This document shows, in pieces, positions 14,350 through 23,720 of a DNA stretch of 64,000 nt. The DNA lies in NCBI GenBank assembly GCA_029254375.1, contig JAQWXR010000018.1, forward strand, positions 1-64,000, given 5' to 3'. The position numbers were made by a program, and so were the translations under genes. This DNA is from Schleiferiaceae bacterium (GTDB taxonomy: Bacteria; Bacteroidota; Bacteroidia; Flavobacteriales; Schleiferiaceae). The notes beneath the pieces are model-generated. The model ran no database searches and was not told the origin of the DNA. It was given only the letters and a program-made list of their open reading frames with translations. Position 1 is the first letter of the stretch, and each line of letters starts with the position of its first letter.

Positions 14350-14368
14350 TCCCCAGGATTTCTAAATA

Positions 14369-14400
14369 GAAAAGCGCGCGCCATTTGGCGCGCGCTTTTC
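14369..14400. terminator. Hairpin terminator after the TPR gene
   Basis: GAAAAGCGCGCGCC and GGCGCGCGCTTTTC form a near-perfect stem around an ATTT loop. The A- and T-tracts on its two sides make it usable for the convergent dnaE-like gene as well. The remaining 136 nt up to 14536 hold only a 16-bp AT palindrome (14493-14508) and no gene I can support. Confidence 0.88.
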
Positions 14401-14492
14401 ATTTCTGGAGACATACTCCATAAAGGTTTAAGGATTTAGCAGGGTAAGAGTGATTGGATGGATGTTCGGAGGTTGAGCTGATTATTAGTTAA

Positions 14493-14536: not shown

Positions 14537-17500
14537 TCACGAGGGCAATCGTTTCATACTAGGACTGATTGGTCTGCGGCGCGGGATTTGTGTTACAGGA
14601 TGCCCGAGCCCGGCGTCAGCATAACGTGGATCAGCCACCATAGGACAGCGCTCCACGTGTTCAACTTCTAAACTGAGGTAGTCATGTTCTGATTGAACTC
14701 TGCCCTGCAGAATGAAGACGCCTCGGTCCTTTACGACATAGCGCCGTACCGAGGGCGGAAAATGAACTGTATCAAAAATGTCCCCCGTAAATTCCTGAAA
14801 GGTTCCAAACTGCATATGTTCTCCTTTGATAGTCTTGCTATTCTTAATGCTAACCACATAGCCTAAGGCCTGAATAACCTGTCCTTGATGCTTTTTCCAC
14901 TGTTTTACGCATGTAAACGGTTTCCCTTGCCAGCCTGTAAATAAGTCAAAGGGATTTCCGAGGCTAAACCCAAGAAGCTCTAATTGATCGTAGGCATCAT
15001 CGAGAATGTGCTGTGAAAGCTCAGGTAAGGAAAATGCCCGTGCGGGCGCCTCAAATAGAGACAGGCTTGGTGCAGCCTGGGGTTTGTGGCCTAGCCGGTG
15101 ATGTGCTTCCCAAAGAAGGGCCCGTTTCGCCTGCTTGGCGAATCGAAATCCGCCTATCCGAATCAATAACAATAAGGACTCCATAGGGACAGGATGTTCC
15201 GCGCGGTGCATCCGATCAATAAACGTGGCCAACGAGGAAAAAGCACCTTTGCGCAGGCGTTCGTGAACGATGCTTCGACAAAAGCGAATGTCTATGCCCA
15301 AAATTCGCTCCATGCCTAGGAGTATGCGCTGGCCATCTAGTAGAGAGCTGCAAACATCGCCTTCATTCACGCAAGGGGCTTCAATGGTGGCTCCATGTCG
15401 ACGTGCTTCGTGGAGGTAGAATTCTGCGCGATAAAATCCTCCGCCATTATTGATAGTCGCGACGAGATATTCTAGGGGGAAGTGTGCTTTGAGGTAAAGA
15501 CTTTGAAAGCTTTCTACTGCGTAAGACGCTGAATGGCCCTTTGCAAAGGCGTAGCCTGCAAAACTCTCGATTTGCCGCCATATTTCTTGGGCATCTACAT
15601 CCGGGTAGCCCTTGCTCCGGCAATTGGTAAAGAATTGCTGCTCAACGGCTAGAAACTCTTCTCGAGACCGGTATTTACCTGACATGCCTCGACGCAGTAC
15701 ATCCGCTTCTGCGAGGCTCAGTCCAGCGTAGTAATGGGCGACTCTGATGACATCCTCTTGATAAACCATGACGCCGTAGGTTTCAGGCATGATGTCGAGC
15801 AATATTGGGTGCGCTTGTGCGCGCCTTTCTGGCTGACGGTGCCGTTCAATATACTCCCGCATCATGCCGGATTGCGCGACACCTGGACGGATGACGGAGC
15901 TAGCCGCTACGAGTTCTAGGTAATTGCTTGTCTGTAGTTTGCACATAAGCATGCGCATCGCGGGTGATTCAACATAAAAACAGCCCATGGCACCCCCATT
16001 CTTGAGGAGCGCCAGGCTTTTGGGGTCTGTTTTGAAGCGAGCTATGTCGTGAATATCGAGTTGAGCGACTTCGGCCGGCTTATTTTTTTTGAGGATGGTT
16101 ACACATTCAGAAATCTTGCTTAGTCCGCGCTGGCCTAGGATGTCAAACTTGTGAAGGCCAACGTCTTCGGCGGTGTACATGTCAAAATCCACCGTGGGAA
16201 AACCTTTAGGCGGTAAAAACGTGGTAGAAAAGGAATGCAGCGGCTCTTGCGCAATGAGAATCCCGCCCGAGTGAATGCTCATCCGGTGGGGAAGGCCGTG
16301 AAGTCGATGTGCATATTGCAGGAGCCGCTGGGCGCTTTCGTCCCCTGCGGGGATTTTTCCTTCCGCAATGGCATCAATTTCAAACTTTGGCAAGCCGAAA
16401 ACTTTACCCAGTTCACGCACCACCGCGCGGTACTGAAAGGTATTGCAGGCGCCGAGTAAGGCCGTGTGTGGAAAGCGCTTGAAGATGTATGCCGTCAAGT
16501 GTTGGCGGTCGCGCCAGGAGAAATCCAGGTCAAAATCTGGTGGGGACTGCCGGTACAGATTGATAAAGCGCTCAAAGTAGAGATCGAGTTCAATGGGGTC
16601 GACATTCGTAATCTTTAGCAGGTAAGCGACGATGCTATTTGCGCCACTCCCGCGTCCTACGTAGAAGTAAGATTGTTTCTGTGCATAGCGGATAATATCC
16701 CAGTTGATTAAAAAGTACGCAGTAAAGGCTTTTTCTTGAATGATTTGCAGTTCCTTCTCCAGGCGTTCATGAACGGCTCGGCTCGCATTCGGATAGCGGT
16801 GAGGAATTGCATCTAAGCATAAGTGCCTAAGGAGCGTTTCGTCTTTGGTACTTGAGCCGGTATAGGTTTGTTGGTTCTTGCCCCCACTCCCCTTTCCTAG
16901 CTGTGCATCCCAGGGTCCTAGGCTGGAAAGGAAATATTGCCCTTGTGTCCATAGTTGTTTTGAAAACCGTGCAGCCAGGCTTTGCGCATCCTCCCAGCGG
17001 TGCTCGTTCGGTAGATGGTCGTTGACTGTTAATTTGCTTAGCACGGTGTTGTGCTCCATGGCTCGAAGCAATCGATGGCTGTTGAAATCGCTCGTTCCGC
17101 GAAAGGCCATGGTGCCCCAGGCAAGGCAGCGTCGCGGCTCAGGATATCGCTCTGCGCGGCGTTGCTCGCTTTCTTCGATGCCGACCCACTCGTCCGCGCG
17201 GAGCTTCCGTTCAGGCGCTCGCTGTAGGGGGTAAATTATTCGAACTTCCGCAAGTTGAGGAGGGCTTTCAAGATGTCCTGGCCTGGCCCGGCTCAGCCAT
17301 GTGTTGATTTGCTGAAACCCATAAGGGCTTTCGGGCAGTAGTATAGCGATTCTAATTCCACCAACTCTTAGATCTACTGCAGGCTGAATCGGGATCTTAG
17401 CCAGTTGTAGGCTGGGTAGAATACCTGCGGTGCCATTCACTTCGGCCAGAATCAGCGGGCTGCAGCCGTGTTTTTCTGCTAGGTCTAGGACGTCTTTGGG

Positions 17501-17548
17501 CTCCAGCACTCCAAAGCGGAAGCTGTACGCCGTGTGGCTAATTATCAT
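14537..17548 (-). CDS. Short DnaE-type DNA polymerase III alpha subunit (mutagenesis cassette)
   Basis: C-family DNA polymerase, 1003 residues, clearly shorter than the roughly 1160 residues of E. coli DnaE. The N-terminal PHP domain is degenerate: HTAYSFRFGVL and LAEVNGT replace the metal-binding HxH and TDH motifs. The polymerase core has YVGRGSGANS (296-305), catalytic Asp340 and Asp342 in PPDFDLDF and YQEDVIRVA further on. An OB-fold segment (VIQALGYVVSI...) ends the protein, with no tau-binding domain. Together with the SRAP, Y-polymerase and S24 genes upstream it resembles the DnaE2/ImuC error-prone polymerase of mutasomes. Spacing to the SRAP stop is 3 nt. Confidence 0.88.
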   Translation of the reverse strand: MIISHTAYSFRFGVLEPKDVLDLAEKHGCSPLILAEVNGTAGILPSLQLAKIPIQPAVDLRVGGIRIAILLPESPYGFQQINTWLSRARPGHLESPPQLAEVRIIYPLQRAPERKLRADEWVGIEESEQRRAERYPEPRRCLAWGTMAFRGTSDFNSHRLLRAMEHNTVLSKLTVNDHLPNEHRWEDAQSLAARFSKQLWTQGQYFLSSLGPWDAQLGKGSGGKNQQTYTGSSTKDETLLRHLCLDAIPHRYPNASRAVHERLEKELQIIQEKAFTAYFLINWDIIRYAQKQSYFYVGRGSGANSIVAYLLKITNVDPIELDLYFERFINLYRQSPPDFDLDFSWRDRQHLTAYIFKRFPHTALLGACNTFQYRAVVRELGKVFGLPKFEIDAIAEGKIPAGDESAQRLLQYAHRLHGLPHRMSIHSGGILIAQEPLHSFSTTFLPPKGFPTVDFDMYTAEDVGLHKFDILGQRGLSKISECVTILKKNKPAEVAQLDIHDIARFKTDPKSLALLKNGGAMGCFYVESPAMRMLMCKLQTSNYLELVAASSVIRPGVAQSGMMREYIERHRQPERRAQAHPILLDIMPETYGVMVYQEDVIRVAHYYAGLSLAEADVLRRGMSGKYRSREEFLAVEQQFFTNCRSKGYPDVDAQEIWRQIESFAGYAFAKGHSASYAVESFQSLYLKAHFPLEYLVATINNGGGFYRAEFYLHEARRHGATIEAPCVNEGDVCSSLLDGQRILLGMERILGIDIRFCRSIVHERLRKGAFSSLATFIDRMHRAEHPVPMESLLLLIRIGGFRFAKQAKRALLWEAHHRLGHKPQAAPSLSLFEAPARAFSLPELSQHILDDAYDQLELLGFSLGNPFDLFTGWQGKPFTCVKQWKKHQGQVIQALGYVVSIKNSKTIKGEHMQFGTFQEFTGDIFDTVHFPPSVRRYVVKDRGVFILQGRVQSEHDYLSLEVEHVERCPMVADPRYADAGLGHPVTQIPRRRPISPSMKRLPS

Positions 17549-17551
17549 GGC

Positions 17552-18331
17552 TTAAGAGGGGCGCATGCCTTCTAGACGCAGATCGCTTTTGCTTTCGTAC
17601 TCCTCTTCGCTAAATAGGCGCTCCCCCGTGGGAAGAAGGATTTTAACGTCTTTATTGCGTGGGTTTTTAATGGCCGGAGATATAGGGTAGGCATTTAAGC
17701 GCTCTCCTGGATAGGGCTTTAGCAGCTCTGTAATATCTGAAAGTTCGCTGTCAAGCGAAAGCCAGTCCTGCTCTGCATCTCGAGGAATAATGACGGGGGA
17801 CCGGTGGTGGCGGATCCTTTGTGTTACCGTGTTTGCTGCGACTGTGATGATAGCGAAGGAGCGAATAATCTCCCCACTTGTGGGGTTATGCCACTCGTCC
17901 CAGATTCCGGCAAAGGCAAAGGGGCGCTCTTGTTTTCTGAGATAAACGAGGTAAGGCTCGCTGAGCTTGTGGTCTTCTGGGCCTTCGATAAACGCATCAG
18001 CAAGGACGAGGCAACGCTGGCTGCGTATGGCTTTACGGAAGCTAGGCTTTTGAATAATGCCCTTGGAGCCGAGGTATCCGGGGTTGTTTTCGGGATTGTG
18101 ATCTCCTTCGGCTCGCGCATTAAGCAGGCACATGGGTTTTTGGGCCCAGTGGGGAACGAGGCCAAATTGGAAGAGTTGGACTTCTTTCGGTCGGTCGCTG
18201 GCAATCACAGGAGCGCGCTCACTCGCCGAAACATTGGGGTTTTTTGGGAAGAGTTCAGGTTGAGGAACGCGGACGCCAAAGCGCTTTTCTACGACGTCAA
18301 TCCGGCTTATTTGAACATAGCGTCCACACAT
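17552..18331 (-). CDS. SOS response-associated peptidase (SRAP/HMCES/YedK family)
   Basis: SRAP proteins form a thiazolidine crosslink with abasic sites in single-stranded DNA, shielding them. The 259-residue product starts MCGRY, so Cys2 becomes the N-terminal nucleophile after Met removal. Asn71 (LNARAE), Glu116 (RCLVLADAFIEG) and His175 (HHRSPVII) align with the YedK catalytic residues; the usual HxRMP reads HHRSP. It is co-transcribed with the DnaE-like polymerase (3-nt gap) but separated from the Y-polymerase by 110 AT-rich bases with an internal promoter, so it can be expressed both with and independently of the upstream pair. Confidence 0.93.
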   Translation of the reverse strand: MCGRYVQISRIDVVEKRFGVRVPQPELFPKNPNVSASERAPVIASDRPKEVQLFQFGLVPHWAQKPMCLLNARAEGDHNPENNPGYLGSKGIIQKPSFRKAIRSQRCLVLADAFIEGPEDHKLSEPYLVYLRKQERPFAFAGIWDEWHNPTSGEIIRSFAIITVAANTVTQRIRHHRSPVIIPRDAEQDWLSLDSELSDITELLKPYPGERLNAYPISPAIKNPRNKDVKILLPTGERLFSEEEYESKSDLRLEGMRPS

Positions 18332-18345
18332 AGGTGTAGTTATTT

Positions 18346-18366
18346 AATAGTTTAAACAAAACTATT
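18346..18366 (-). promoter_or_regulatory. Promoter plus inverted repeat upstream of the SRAP gene
   Basis: Minus strand -7 box TAGTTTTG (18364-18357) lies inside the inverted repeat AATAGTTT-N5-AAACTATT (18346-18366), 25 nt before the SRAP ATG. The arrangement suggests an operator covering the promoter. The arms differ from the palindrome in front of the S24 gene, so a different regulator is possible. No -33 TTG is seen at the right distance. Confidence 0.5.
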
Positions 18367-18441
18367 TAAAATACTGGTTTTGTGTATTTTAAATATTGGT
18401 ATAGATATTTTCTATAAGTCGTTTTGACTTAGCTGAAGGCC

Positions 18442-19653
18442 TTAGGATCTTCGGTTCGAAAGCAACGGCGGCGGCTCTCCATTGAAGGGGTTCTCTCGAC
18501 CAATAGTCCGTGCCCCCATTCCATAAGCACGGACAACGGCTCGGTCTCCATACGTCACGCGAATATGATCCATGGCAGCATACAGTCGGTCGTTTCGGTC
18601 GCATGTCTCAAAGAGGTGATACTGCTCCCCTCCCCCTACGAGTCCGCTCAAATGAATACCAATAAGTCGAATTCGAACCCTTCGATCGTAGAGACGCTGA
18701 AACAACTCTTTAGCTTTTGGGATCAAGATGGCATCAGAGGCAGTGTAAGGCATGCTGACTTGCTGGCTATGCGTCTGGAAGTCAGCATAGCGGATTTTGA
18801 TTCGCACACAGCTAGTTAGCTTATGTCCTCGGCGGAGCTGAAAGGCTAGGTTTTCGACCATCGCCACTAGAATGCTTTGAAGCTTTTCAATGTCAGCACT
18901 ATCCTGATCAAAGGTGCGCTCGGTCGAAATGGATTTCCGCTCATGGCTAGCGCGCACAGGGGATTCATCAAGCCCTTGAGCCTTTTCCCAAAGGGTTTTC
19001 CCAGGCTTGCCAAATACGCTGTATAACATATCGACAGGCATTTCCTGAAGGATTCCAATGCTCTGGACGCCTAGATTCCTCAAGGTTTGATAAGTCTTCT
19101 CTCCGACCATAGGGATTTTTCGGACAGATAAAGGGGCTAAGAAGCTCCGCTCTGTACCTAGATCAACGTGCCTTTGATTATTGGGTTTCGCTTCTCCTGT
19201 GGCTACTTTAGAAACCGTTTTATTTGCAGAAAGACCAAAGGAAATGGGCAATCCGGACTCGCGCATGACGCGTTGGCGAAGCTCGGAAGAAAAGGAAAGG
19301 GCGCCAAAAAAGCGATCCATGCCGGTCAGATCGGCATAAAATTCATCAATAGAGGCTTTTTCCAGCAGGGGAACCTGCTCTCGTATGATATCTGTTACTA
19401 GCTTGGATTGCTTGGAGTAGGCGGCGGAATTCCCTCGAATAACGACGGCTTCGGGGCATAAGCCTCGTGCCATCCGCATGGGCATGGCGGAACGTATGCC
19501 GAATTTCCGTGCCTCATAACTACACGAAGCCACTACGCCTCGGTCGGAGGTGCCTCCAATGAGAATGGGGCGCCCCTCCAGTCGCTGGTCCTGTAGGCGC
19601 TCGACGGACACAAAAAAGCTGTCCAAGTCCATATGAAGCACGTGGCGTTGCAT
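18442..19653 (-). CDS. Y-family DNA polymerase (DinB/UmuC-like)
   Basis: Translesion DNA polymerase, 403 residues. HMDLDSFFVSVE carries metal-binding Asp9, and SIDEFY carries Asp103-Glu104, so the active site is intact, unlike ImuB where these are lost. Fingers (CSYEARKFGIRSAMP) and little-finger domain are present. QYHLF (345-349) matches the QxxLF beta-clamp-binding motif. It lies 13 nt after the S24 repressor gene in the same direction, as umuC follows umuD, and upstream of the SRAP-DnaE pair. It is DinB-like by motifs, but context is UmuC-like. Confidence 0.93.
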   Translation of the reverse strand: MQRHVLHMDLDSFFVSVERLQDQRLEGRPILIGGTSDRGVVASCSYEARKFGIRSAMPMRMARGLCPEAVVIRGNSAAYSKQSKLVTDIIREQVPLLEKASIDEFYADLTGMDRFFGALSFSSELRQRVMRESGLPISFGLSANKTVSKVATGEAKPNNQRHVDLGTERSFLAPLSVRKIPMVGEKTYQTLRNLGVQSIGILQEMPVDMLYSVFGKPGKTLWEKAQGLDESPVRASHERKSISTERTFDQDSADIEKLQSILVAMVENLAFQLRRGHKLTSCVRIKIRYADFQTHSQQVSMPYTASDAILIPKAKELFQRLYDRRVRIRLIGIHLSGLVGGGEQYHLFETCDRNDRLYAAMDHIRVTYGDRAVVRAYGMGARTIGRENPFNGEPPPLLSNRRS

Positions 19654-19666
19654 GAGGGGGAGCGGA

Positions 19667-20467
19667 TTAGGCGACGTTTTGATTCAATGCTATCCGAAGG
19701 GCCCGCACTTCTTGCTGTAGCGCGTCGAGGCGATTTAGGACGACATCATCACCTCCAAACTTGGCGGAGAGGTCCCATTGAATACTCCCCTCCACTTTCC
19801 AGACCTCAAGAAGATCCTCAACGTGTACGCAATAGGGTGCGTAGATGGGGTTATCTGAAATGAGTTCGATTTCTCCAGAGGAAAGGATGTGATTGCTTGC
19901 TCTTTTAAATACAACACCTTGGTCCTGAGTCAGAAATACATAGAGCTCTCCTGTTTTAATAGAATGCCAGTCCTGCACATAGCTAGAAATCACGTACGAG
20001 CCAGGCACAAAAGGGAGCATACTATCTCCTTGAATTTGGAATACGCGTCGAGTTTCTTCAGAGGATAGCTCAGGTATGGGCAATGAAAACTGAGGAAGTG
20101 CTTCAACAAAGTCAATATCGCCATATCCCCCAAGGTAGCCGGCGGCCGCTTTGACAGGAACGAGGGATATGCGCTCTCGGTTGCTTTCTGGATCGATAGG
20201 TACGGCAAGTACGCGCAACTTTCGGCCAGCAAGGCGCTCTCCATCTATGCCTTTAGAGGCAGACGCCAGGTCCATTCCGCCGACTAAACTATCGAGACTT
20301 GTTTGAAATACGCGAGAAAAAGCCATGAGGGTCTCCAGCTTAGGCTCTGCTCTTCCTTCTTCGTAGGATCCAATTAAAGATCTCTTAACTCCTACTCTAT
20401 CAGCAAGTTGCTGCTGTGTCCATCCATTTTTTTTACGAAGTGATTTCAGGCTATTGGCGAGTTCCAT
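19667..20467 (-). CDS. HTH/S24 self-cleaving repressor (LexA/UmuD-like)
   Basis: A 266-residue XRE helix-turn-helix (residues 3-60, GWTQQQLADRVGVKRSLIGSYEEG) joined to an S24 peptidase. Ser149 (QGDSMLPF) and Lys188 (VVFKRAS) form the catalytic dyad, and Ala109-Gly110 in VKAAAGYLGG is the predicted autocleavage site, as in LexA, CI and UmuD. RecA-filament-stimulated cleavage would relieve repression of this cassette; the cleaved C-terminal part could also assist the neighbouring Y-polymerase, which is inference. The C-terminus has a short coiled coil (LNRLDALQQEVRALRIAL). Its promoter sits under a 36-bp palindrome. Confidence 0.92.
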   Translation of the reverse strand: MELANSLKSLRKKNGWTQQQLADRVGVKRSLIGSYEEGRAEPKLETLMAFSRVFQTSLDSLVGGMDLASASKGIDGERLAGRKLRVLAVPIDPESNRERISLVPVKAAAGYLGGYGDIDFVEALPQFSLPIPELSSEETRRVFQIQGDSMLPFVPGSYVISSYVQDWHSIKTGELYVFLTQDQGVVFKRASNHILSSGEIELISDNPIYAPYCVHVEDLLEVWKVEGSIQWDLSAKFGGDDVVLNRLDALQQEVRALRIALNQNVA

Positions 20468-20473
20468 CTTTAT

Positions 20474-20524
20474 TTACTAATTAAATTAGAATACTAAATT
20501 AGTTAGTAATAAAGGATTGTGCAA
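20474..20524 (-). promoter_or_regulatory. Promoter and 36-bp operator of the S24-PolY cassette
   Basis: Minus strand: -33 TTG (20524-20522), 20-bp spacer, -7 TAATTTAG (one mismatch to TAnnTTTG, 20501-20494). Over the -7 box and predicted start lies an imperfect palindrome, 20474-20509: arms TTACTAATTAAATTAG and CTAAATTAGTTAGTAA around AATA, 14 of 16 positions symmetric. This is where an autoregulating S24 repressor would be expected to bind. The predicted leader is about 20 nt. Confidence 0.65.
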
Positions 20525-20530
20525 ATTTTT

Positions 20531-22257: not shown

Positions 22258-22311
22258 TTTGTAAACGGATATACTTATTTACGCTTTTACTAACATTTGT
22301 AAACAAATATT
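22258..22311. promoter_or_regulatory. Paired TTTGTAAAC elements between zinc-ribbon and ssb genes
   Basis: TTTGTAAACGGATAT (22258-22272) and TTTGTAAACAAATAT (22297-22311) are direct repeats 39 bp apart. Each contains dyad symmetry: GTTT-GT-AAAC in the first and the longer ATTTGT-AA-ACAAAT in the second. They look like paired operator sites in the divergent intergenic region; no known regulator is implied. Confidence 0.45.
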
Positions 22312-22365: not shown

Positions 22366-22722
22366 ATGGCGAATATGAAAAATCGAATCACGCTCATTGG
22401 GCGGGTTGGGCAAAGTCCCGAGAGTAAATCCTTTGATTCTGGAAAACAACGATGTCAATTTTCTCTGGCCACCAATGAAAAGATAAAAACCTCCCAAGGC
22501 GACGTAAAGGAGGATACACAGTGGCACTCTATCGTTCTTTGGGGCTCACTTGCTGAGATAGCTGAGAAGTATGTTCGCAAGGGCGACTTATGCGCCCTGG
22601 AGGGAAAGTTGGTCTATCGGAGCTATGAAGATGCCAATGGCCAAACCGTATACAGAACGGAAATTATTGGAAACGACCTTCAATTATTAAGCCCGAAGTC
22701 TTCTGAAATGCCAAACGATTGA
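22366..22722 (+). CDS. ssb: Single-stranded DNA-binding protein (SSB paralogue)
   Basis: OB-fold ssDNA-binding protein, 118 residues. MKNRITLIGRVGQSPE, CQFSLATNE, TQWHSIVLWGSLAEIAEKYVRKGDLCALEGKL and YRTEIIGNDLQLL are the standard SSB strands. It is short: there is no Gly/Gln/Pro-rich linker and the end is SSEMPND instead of an acidic tip finishing in DIPF, the docking site for repair partners. It is therefore likely a second SSB and not the main replication SSB, which is not seen here. An alternative start is ATG 22375. The last 43 nt overlap the convergent M14 peptidase gene. Confidence 0.9.
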   Translation: MANMKNRITLIGRVGQSPESKSFDSGKQRCQFSLATNEKIKTSQGDVKEDTQWHSIVLWGSLAEIAEKYVRKGDLCALEGKLVYRSYEDANGQTVYRTEIIGNDLQLLSPKSSEMPND

Positions 22723-23720
22723 ATTTGATCTTGCGAAACCACGGTGCCTGGCAAAAGATGGCTTAAGGATTGCTCACAATGACTTTGAATCCAGCTGGGC
22801 ATCGTGGGGTCGTATGCCTCAACCACCCATTGAATTACAAATTGACCCTCTATGACTCGTTCTTCGAGTCTTAAATGGGTCGTCCCATTCGAATGATGAA
22901 TAAGCCATTCATTCGCGGGGTAGTCATTCATGGGTAAATCATGATATGCTTGAATGTTAGGATCTAAGTCTGTCCATGAGGGCAGTCGATCTAAATCTAT
23001 TAGGAGCGCGCTTAATTGTTTGCCTACGGGTGCTCTGCTCCAATCGCTCAAATGAATGCCTGTTTCGAATGTGATAGTGGCCACTCCGTGTTCTTGGAAA
23101 TACTCTCCAAATGCTGTAGGATAAAATTGGTCATCGAAGCGAGCAACGGCCCCAGGCCATTTGGGTAATAATTGTCCGATCCATTTCGCTAAAACACGCT
23201 GGGCGAGGTCTTGAGCGCTTTGCTGGGCCTCATTGGGCGCTTCGGGGTGTCCCTTGGGTGCAAGCAAGGAAAAAGCTGCAGGCTTATTGCTTCCTTTTGG
23301 GAAAAAGCGTGGCCGCTGGTCATGGAGATTGAGGACAAGTTCAGGTTTAAATGAGCGAAAGGCAGCGACCAACGCTTGTGCCTCTGGACTTATTAGCGCT
23401 CGTGCATCCCGATTGATATCCATGCCCTGAGCGTTCAGCCGGGTAAAAGCTTCAGCGCCATCAGGGTTAAGGATGGGGATGATGAAGTAGCTGGAAGCAA
23501 GCGTTGAGGATGACATAAGGTCCATTAAGGCTTCAAATCCAGTAGGTTCATTTCCATGCATTAGGGACCAAGCCATGATCCGTTTGGCGTCCTGGGCATT
23601 TGTGAAGCCACAGATTGGGCGACCCTCATAGGAGCGACCCAGTTCGATTTCAGTCCAATTTAGACGAATTGCCGCTGTGCGGGCTCGTCCCAAACGTTGA
23701 TCAAATGACTGGTATCGCAT
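22680..23720 (-). CDS. M14-family zinc carboxypeptidase
   Basis: Metallocarboxypeptidase of the M14 family, 346 residues. His55 and Glu58 in MHGNE and His133 in NLHDQ are the zinc ligands; Glu219 in TITFETG fits the catalytic base. LNPDGAEAFTRLNAQGMDINRD is the substrate-binding arginine/asparagine region. There is no signal peptide, so the protein appears cytoplasmic; peptides or peptidoglycan fragments are possible substrates. A TACATTTG box ends 4 nt before the ATG. The 3' end overlaps ssb by 43 nt. Confidence 0.87.
   Translation of the reverse strand: MRYQSFDQRLGRARTAAIRLNWTEIELGRSYEGRPICGFTNAQDAKRIMAWSLMHGNEPTGFEALMDLMSSSTLASSYFIIPILNPDGAEAFTRLNAQGMDINRDARALISPEAQALVAAFRSFKPELVLNLHDQRPRFFPKGSNKPAAFSLLAPKGHPEAPNEAQQSAQDLAQRVLAKWIGQLLPKWPGAVARFDDQFYPTAFGEYFQEHGVATITFETGIHLSDWSRAPVGKQLSALLIDLDRLPSWTDLDPNIQAYHDLPMNDYPANEWLIHHSNGTTHLRLEERVIEGQFVIQWVVEAYDPTMPSWIQSHCEQSLSHLLPGTVVSQDQIQSFGISEDFGLNN

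Follow-up and report, generated by a model that had tools for sequence, protein, structure and literature searches.

A predicted operator pair for a non-canonical LexA-type S24 repressor over the promoter of an error-prone polymerase operon in a Schleiferiaceae bacterium

The window analysed here is a 64,000-nucleotide stretch of DNA from a Schleiferiaceae bacterium. Within it, a 63-bp intergenic segment (20468-20530; 82.5% AT) hosts a 36-bp imperfect dyad. A gene for an S24 repressor lies downstream, with its ATG 7 bp from the dyad, and is followed by genes for two DNA polymerases and a SRAP protein. The features are as follows.

20494-20524, minus strand: Bacteroidota-type sigma-A promoter (TTG, N20, -7 box TAATTTAG)
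20494-20506, minus strand: box O1, promoter-distal; CTAACTAATTTAG on the minus strand, an exact CTAA-N5-TTAG that overlaps the -7 box
20477-20489, minus strand: box O2, promoter-proximal; CTAATTTAATTAG on the minus strand, an exact CTAA-N5-TTAG
20474-20509, no strand: composite 36-bp imperfect dyad made up of O1 and O2; not a conserved unit
19667-20467, minus strand: HTH_3 plus S24 repressor of the non-canonical LexA type, 266 aa (A109-G110 cleavage pair, S149/K188 dyad, helix 240-264)
18442-19653, minus strand: Y-family DNA polymerase (PolY), DinB/Pol IV-like, with the catalytic D and DE residues present
17552-18331, minus strand: SRAP (SOS response associated peptidase)
14537-17548, minus strand: DnaE2-like error-prone polymerase III alpha, 1003 aa; last gene of the operon
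14369-14400, no strand: GC-rich 14-bp hairpin, likely operon terminator (-28.7 kcal/mol), between the convergent DnaE2 and TPR ends

The DnaE2-like protein shares no more than 28-36% identity with the replicative DnaE, which is encoded separately. Together, PolY and DnaE2 recall the ImuA-ImuB-DnaE2 mutasome, and the DnaE2B-PolY-RecA module of Bacteroidetes, in pairing a Y-family with a DnaE2-type polymerase (PMC12926913). Unlike the mutasome, the operon encodes a PolY of the active type, with catalytic residues, rather than an inactive ImuB; ImuA is absent and SRAP is included. Note that PolY and SRAP are separated by 110 bp (18332-18441), a gap of similar length in close relatives, and that the other gaps in the operon are 3-13 bp. 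The 110-bp gap contains no exact box. At the far end, positions 14365-14404 hold a perfect 14-bp GC-rich stem, likely to serve the convergent DnaE2 and TPR genes as a two-way terminator.

The first-pass annotation took the first gene product for a generic CI/LexA repressor. The LexA/CI type is upheld; specifically, the protein very probably belongs to the non-canonical LexA type of Bacteroidetes. Members of that family combine HTH_3 and S24 domains, carry Ala-Gly, Ser and Lys residues for RecA-triggered self-cleavage, and have an extra C-terminal helix that LexA and CI lack (Sanchez-Osuna et al. 2021, PMC8565304). The same features are recognisable here from sequence and model. The N-terminal HTH (PF01381, HTH_3) matches with an E value of 2.6e-16, and Peptidase_S24 with 4.3e-7. 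Across an alignment of 27 relatives, A109, S149 and K188 never vary and G110 hardly does. The AlphaFold model (mean pLDDT 74, which is moderate) has a helical N-terminal HTH with five helices, an S24 fold and, at the C-terminus, a long helix (240-264). This helix may correspond to the extra helix reported for the family. In structural comparison, the protein comes closest to a lambda-186 hybrid repressor and LexA; for the HTH alone, the best match is P22 c2. NCBIfam has no equivalog name for the protein. Canonical LexA was considered and rejected, since the winged-HTH domain PF01726 is absent among the Pfam matches.

The promoter on the minus strand was correctly placed by the first-pass annotation: TTG at 20524-20522, a 20-bp spacer, and TAATTTAG at 20501-20494. 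The published -7 consensus, TAnnTTTG, occupies positions -12 to -5 (PMC9723704). Hence, transcription probably starts near 20489. With this start, O1 would extend from -17 to -5, over the -7 element, and O2 from +1 to +13. The layout is clean: one box over the -7 element, a second at the transcription start, and a 17-bp register between them.

The dyad itself is real. It reads TTACTAATTAAATTAG AATA CTAAATTAGTTAGTAA, is centred on 20491.5, and has arms (20474-20489 and 20494-20509) complementary at 14 of 16 positions around the AATA loop. The TACTAA repeat noticed inside the arms is also present, at 20475 and 20492. Scoring 15 over 18 pairs, the dyad ties with the stem at 14384.5 as the best of all 18-pair dyads in the 64-kb window. 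Closer reading of the arms reveals two adjoining 13-bp palindromic boxes, each an exact CTAA-N5-TTAG: CTAATTAAATTAG (20477-20489) and CTAAATTAGTTAG (20494-20506). The distance between them is 17 bp, measured between starts or centres. Because each arm holds its own complete 13-bp box, the 36-bp dyad can be understood as a by-product of two palindromes placed side by side. In dinucleotide shuffles of the segment 20468-20530, a single CTAA-N5-TTAG turns up in 0.8% of cases, and a pair in none of 5000.

The motif is not new. CTAA-N5-TTAG is the box of Bacteroidetes non-canonical LexA, and precedes umuDC, recA and dinB, as well as the repressor's own gene, in that phylum; several genes have two or more boxes per promoter (PMC8565304). 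We consider it highly likely, judging by sequence and conservation, that O1 and O2 are the operator pair of the adjacent S24 repressor, a non-canonical LexA, and lock the S24-PolY-SRAP-DnaE2 operon as an SOS operon. Since the putative operator lies over the promoter of the repressor's own gene, the circuit would be autoregulated. The S24 protein very probably represses its own transcription and that of three DNA-repair genes, encoding the two polymerases and SRAP.

Alternatively, the 36-bp dyad could be a single operator that a repressor dimer or tetramer recognises as a whole. The symmetry of the arms is indeed rarer than chance, with a 14/16 dyad in 0.3% of the same shuffles, and a pair of dimers spaced 17 bp apart would have one twofold axis in common. 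However, a complete 13-bp box of known type sits in each arm, and the published relative binds just such a box with a rigid spacer. For the P. actiniarum repressor, EMSA and mutagenesis demonstrated binding to CTAA-N5-TTAG in vitro, and binding was lost if either half or the spacer length was changed (PMC8565304). Comparison across the genus also counts against a single operator. Our footprint comprised the window and 18 congeners (19 sequences; the genomes are MAGs). O1 is exact in all 19, and so is the TTG-N20-TAnnTTAG promoter; the 17-bp register between boxes is kept in the 18 congeners. The core of O2 is intact (8/8) in six sequences, matches at 7/8 in six more, and at 5/8 in the remaining seven. 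In those same seven, symmetry of the 36-bp composite is down to 9-11 of 18 pairs, yet O1 is still perfect. Since O1 and the promoter are kept while the composite symmetry decays, selection appears to act on box and promoter, not on the large palindrome. Reduction of O2 to a half-site in 7/19 sequences indicates that O2 is not essential everywhere. We conclude that a single 36-bp operator is improbable. Hence, the earlier proposal of a CI/LexA-type autoregulated operator stands in that the element overlaps the promoter of the S24 gene, with an amended unit: two CTAA-N5-TTAG boxes instead of one palindrome. Conservation in relatives, named beforehand as the check, was found for O1 and the promoter, and not for the dyad as a whole.

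Beyond the genus, the spacing recurs. Among other genera in which a box could be recognised, 8 of 12 neighbour pairs show a second, weaker box at a distance of 17 or 18 bp (naive binomial 3e-7, with relatedness ignored).

A dyad just past the stop codon of the HI0933-like gene could also act as RNA, either as the terminator of this upstream gene or as a 5'-UTR structure. The minus strand does fold, at -7.7 kcal/mol (z -3.0). However, the AU-rich stem is weak against the -28.7 kcal/mol terminator at 14384. Moreover, the composite symmetry decays in congeners where the box stays, and a copy stands before recA in one congener, G018, where a terminator would be senseless. We regard an RNA hairpin as very improbable.

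Still less probable is that the S24 protein is the CI repressor of a prophage or mobile element, with the dyad as a phage operator. The N-terminal HTH is closest to P22 c2/434-type repressors, and a phage origin has been suggested for the non-canonical LexA family (PMC8565304). Phage genes are, though, absent from the listed neighbourhood. The locus is chromosomal, with housekeeping neighbours: synteny across the genus takes in gyrA, TPR, HI0933 and the cassette, with the same promoter in 19/19 sequences.

For an operator pair bound by the S24 repressor, the following mechanism can be proposed. A repressor dimer on O1 (20494-20506) would hide the -7 box and so block sigma-A polymerase. Another dimer, 17 bp away on O2 (20477-20489), would obstruct the first transcribed bases and strengthen the block; at this distance, the two dimers would probably bind cooperatively. 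On DNA damage, RecA filaments would trigger self-cleavage of the repressor at A109-G110, by means of S149 and K188. Cleavage would release S24-PolY-SRAP-DnaE2 as an inducible translesion-synthesis cassette. The released operon would make more repressor and so reset itself.

Much of this is familiar. Two classical LexA boxes precede lexA in E. coli, and the arrangement here is similar, with tandem boxes over the repressor's own promoter and RecA-triggered self-cleavage expected. Conversely, the DNA-binding domain is a CI-type HTH rather than a winged HTH, and the box sequence differs. Agreement is closer with described non-canonical LexA systems, which share CTAA-N5-TTAG boxes at the repressor's own promoter and error-prone polymerase genes as targets (PMC8565304). 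The differences are a strict 17-bp tandem pair and a regulon that is seemingly one operon without recA. Control of several SOS genes, including recA, is typical of the family, varies within it, and very small regulons are reported in some lineages (PMC8565304). The biology is mostly known, and what appears unusual is the very small regulon, with boxes essentially nowhere else in the genus, together with one relative in which the polymerases are lost and a copy of the switch precedes recA. With our analysis, a small lineage of aquatic Bacteroidota (Schleiferiaceae/Cryomorphaceae-type MAGs, from which the named close relatives also come) joins the recently described non-canonical LexA system. 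It also offers a minimal one-operon SOS circuit in which the target would be mutagenic repair, not recA.

The size of the regulon was judged from a scan of the 1.7-Mb assembly (88.5% complete). There are 19 exact CTAA-N5-TTAG sites, about as many as shuffles of the window predict (0.72 per 64 kb). O1 and O2 are the only intergenic boxes; the other 17 of the 19 fall inside long ORFs. The extended 17-bp O1 is the sole match in the genome to TRCTAAN5TTAGYA. Likewise, in most of 22 genus genomes this pattern occurs once, before the S24 gene. No box was found upstream of recA in the genus, this genome included, with G018 as the exception, and no SOS gene outside the operon was found with a box in this genome. 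With recA lacking a box and the remaining exact sites in ORFs, the regulon appears to be one operon, to which weaker boxes (at least one core mismatch) could add targets; a full SOS response is not indicated. The first-pass annotation expected a scan to uncover a regulon; essentially no site emerged beyond the repressor's own operon.

Some individual sites deserve mention. A possible box at 22991 lies inside a peptidase-like gene (22680-23720) and was taken as chance. Upstream of ssb (22270-22300) is a box-like stretch, CTAACATTTGTAA, that matches at 6/8 positions and is too weak for a claim. Additional boxes in congeners G010, G013, G014, G015, G016 and G021, and one in G009, are inside ORFs. 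A further G009 box (C12:43618) is at the 3' end of a gene, ~95 bp before the next start. One box in G012 is located beyond the uvrA 3' end, where two genes converge.

Congener G018 is different (L059:6301-7301 and L172:1387-1471). Here, an 85-bp duplicate of the S24 promoter, 91% identical, directly precedes recA; both boxes in it are unchanged, and the first codons of the S24 gene are still attached. No other single observation argues as strongly that the boxes are SOS boxes as this independent placement in front of recA. As in other congeners, recA keeps its usual neighbours, evidence against a chimeric contig. The G018 genome (L059/L172; 84% complete) lacks PolY and DnaE2. There, the S24 gene is directly followed by TPR and gyrA, which flank the cassette elsewhere, so loss of the polymerases is not just an assembly gap. 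We lean, with some reserve, towards a two-part account. The SOS network of the genus would have shrunk to one repressor and one operon. G018 would then represent a regulon switch: PolY and DnaE2 were lost, the repressor and both boxes were kept, and recA was brought under the same control by the copied 85-bp promoter. If this is true, G018 is a direct snapshot of a LexA regulon gaining a target by promoter duplication. The promoter copy in G018 also makes the rewiring of SOS regulons open to test.

The cassette itself also varies. Most congeners retain the order S24-PolY-SRAP-DnaE2. In L051-L054, no SRAP match lies between PolY and DnaE2 and both polymerases are kept; hence, SRAP appears dispensable in the cassette. 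In more distant Bacteroidota, the cassette genes are rearranged or divergent. Four such relatives (L068, L071, L073 and L105) have the order S24-SRAP-DnaE2-PolY, and in Marinilabiliales-type relatives PolY and DnaE2 are divergent from S24.
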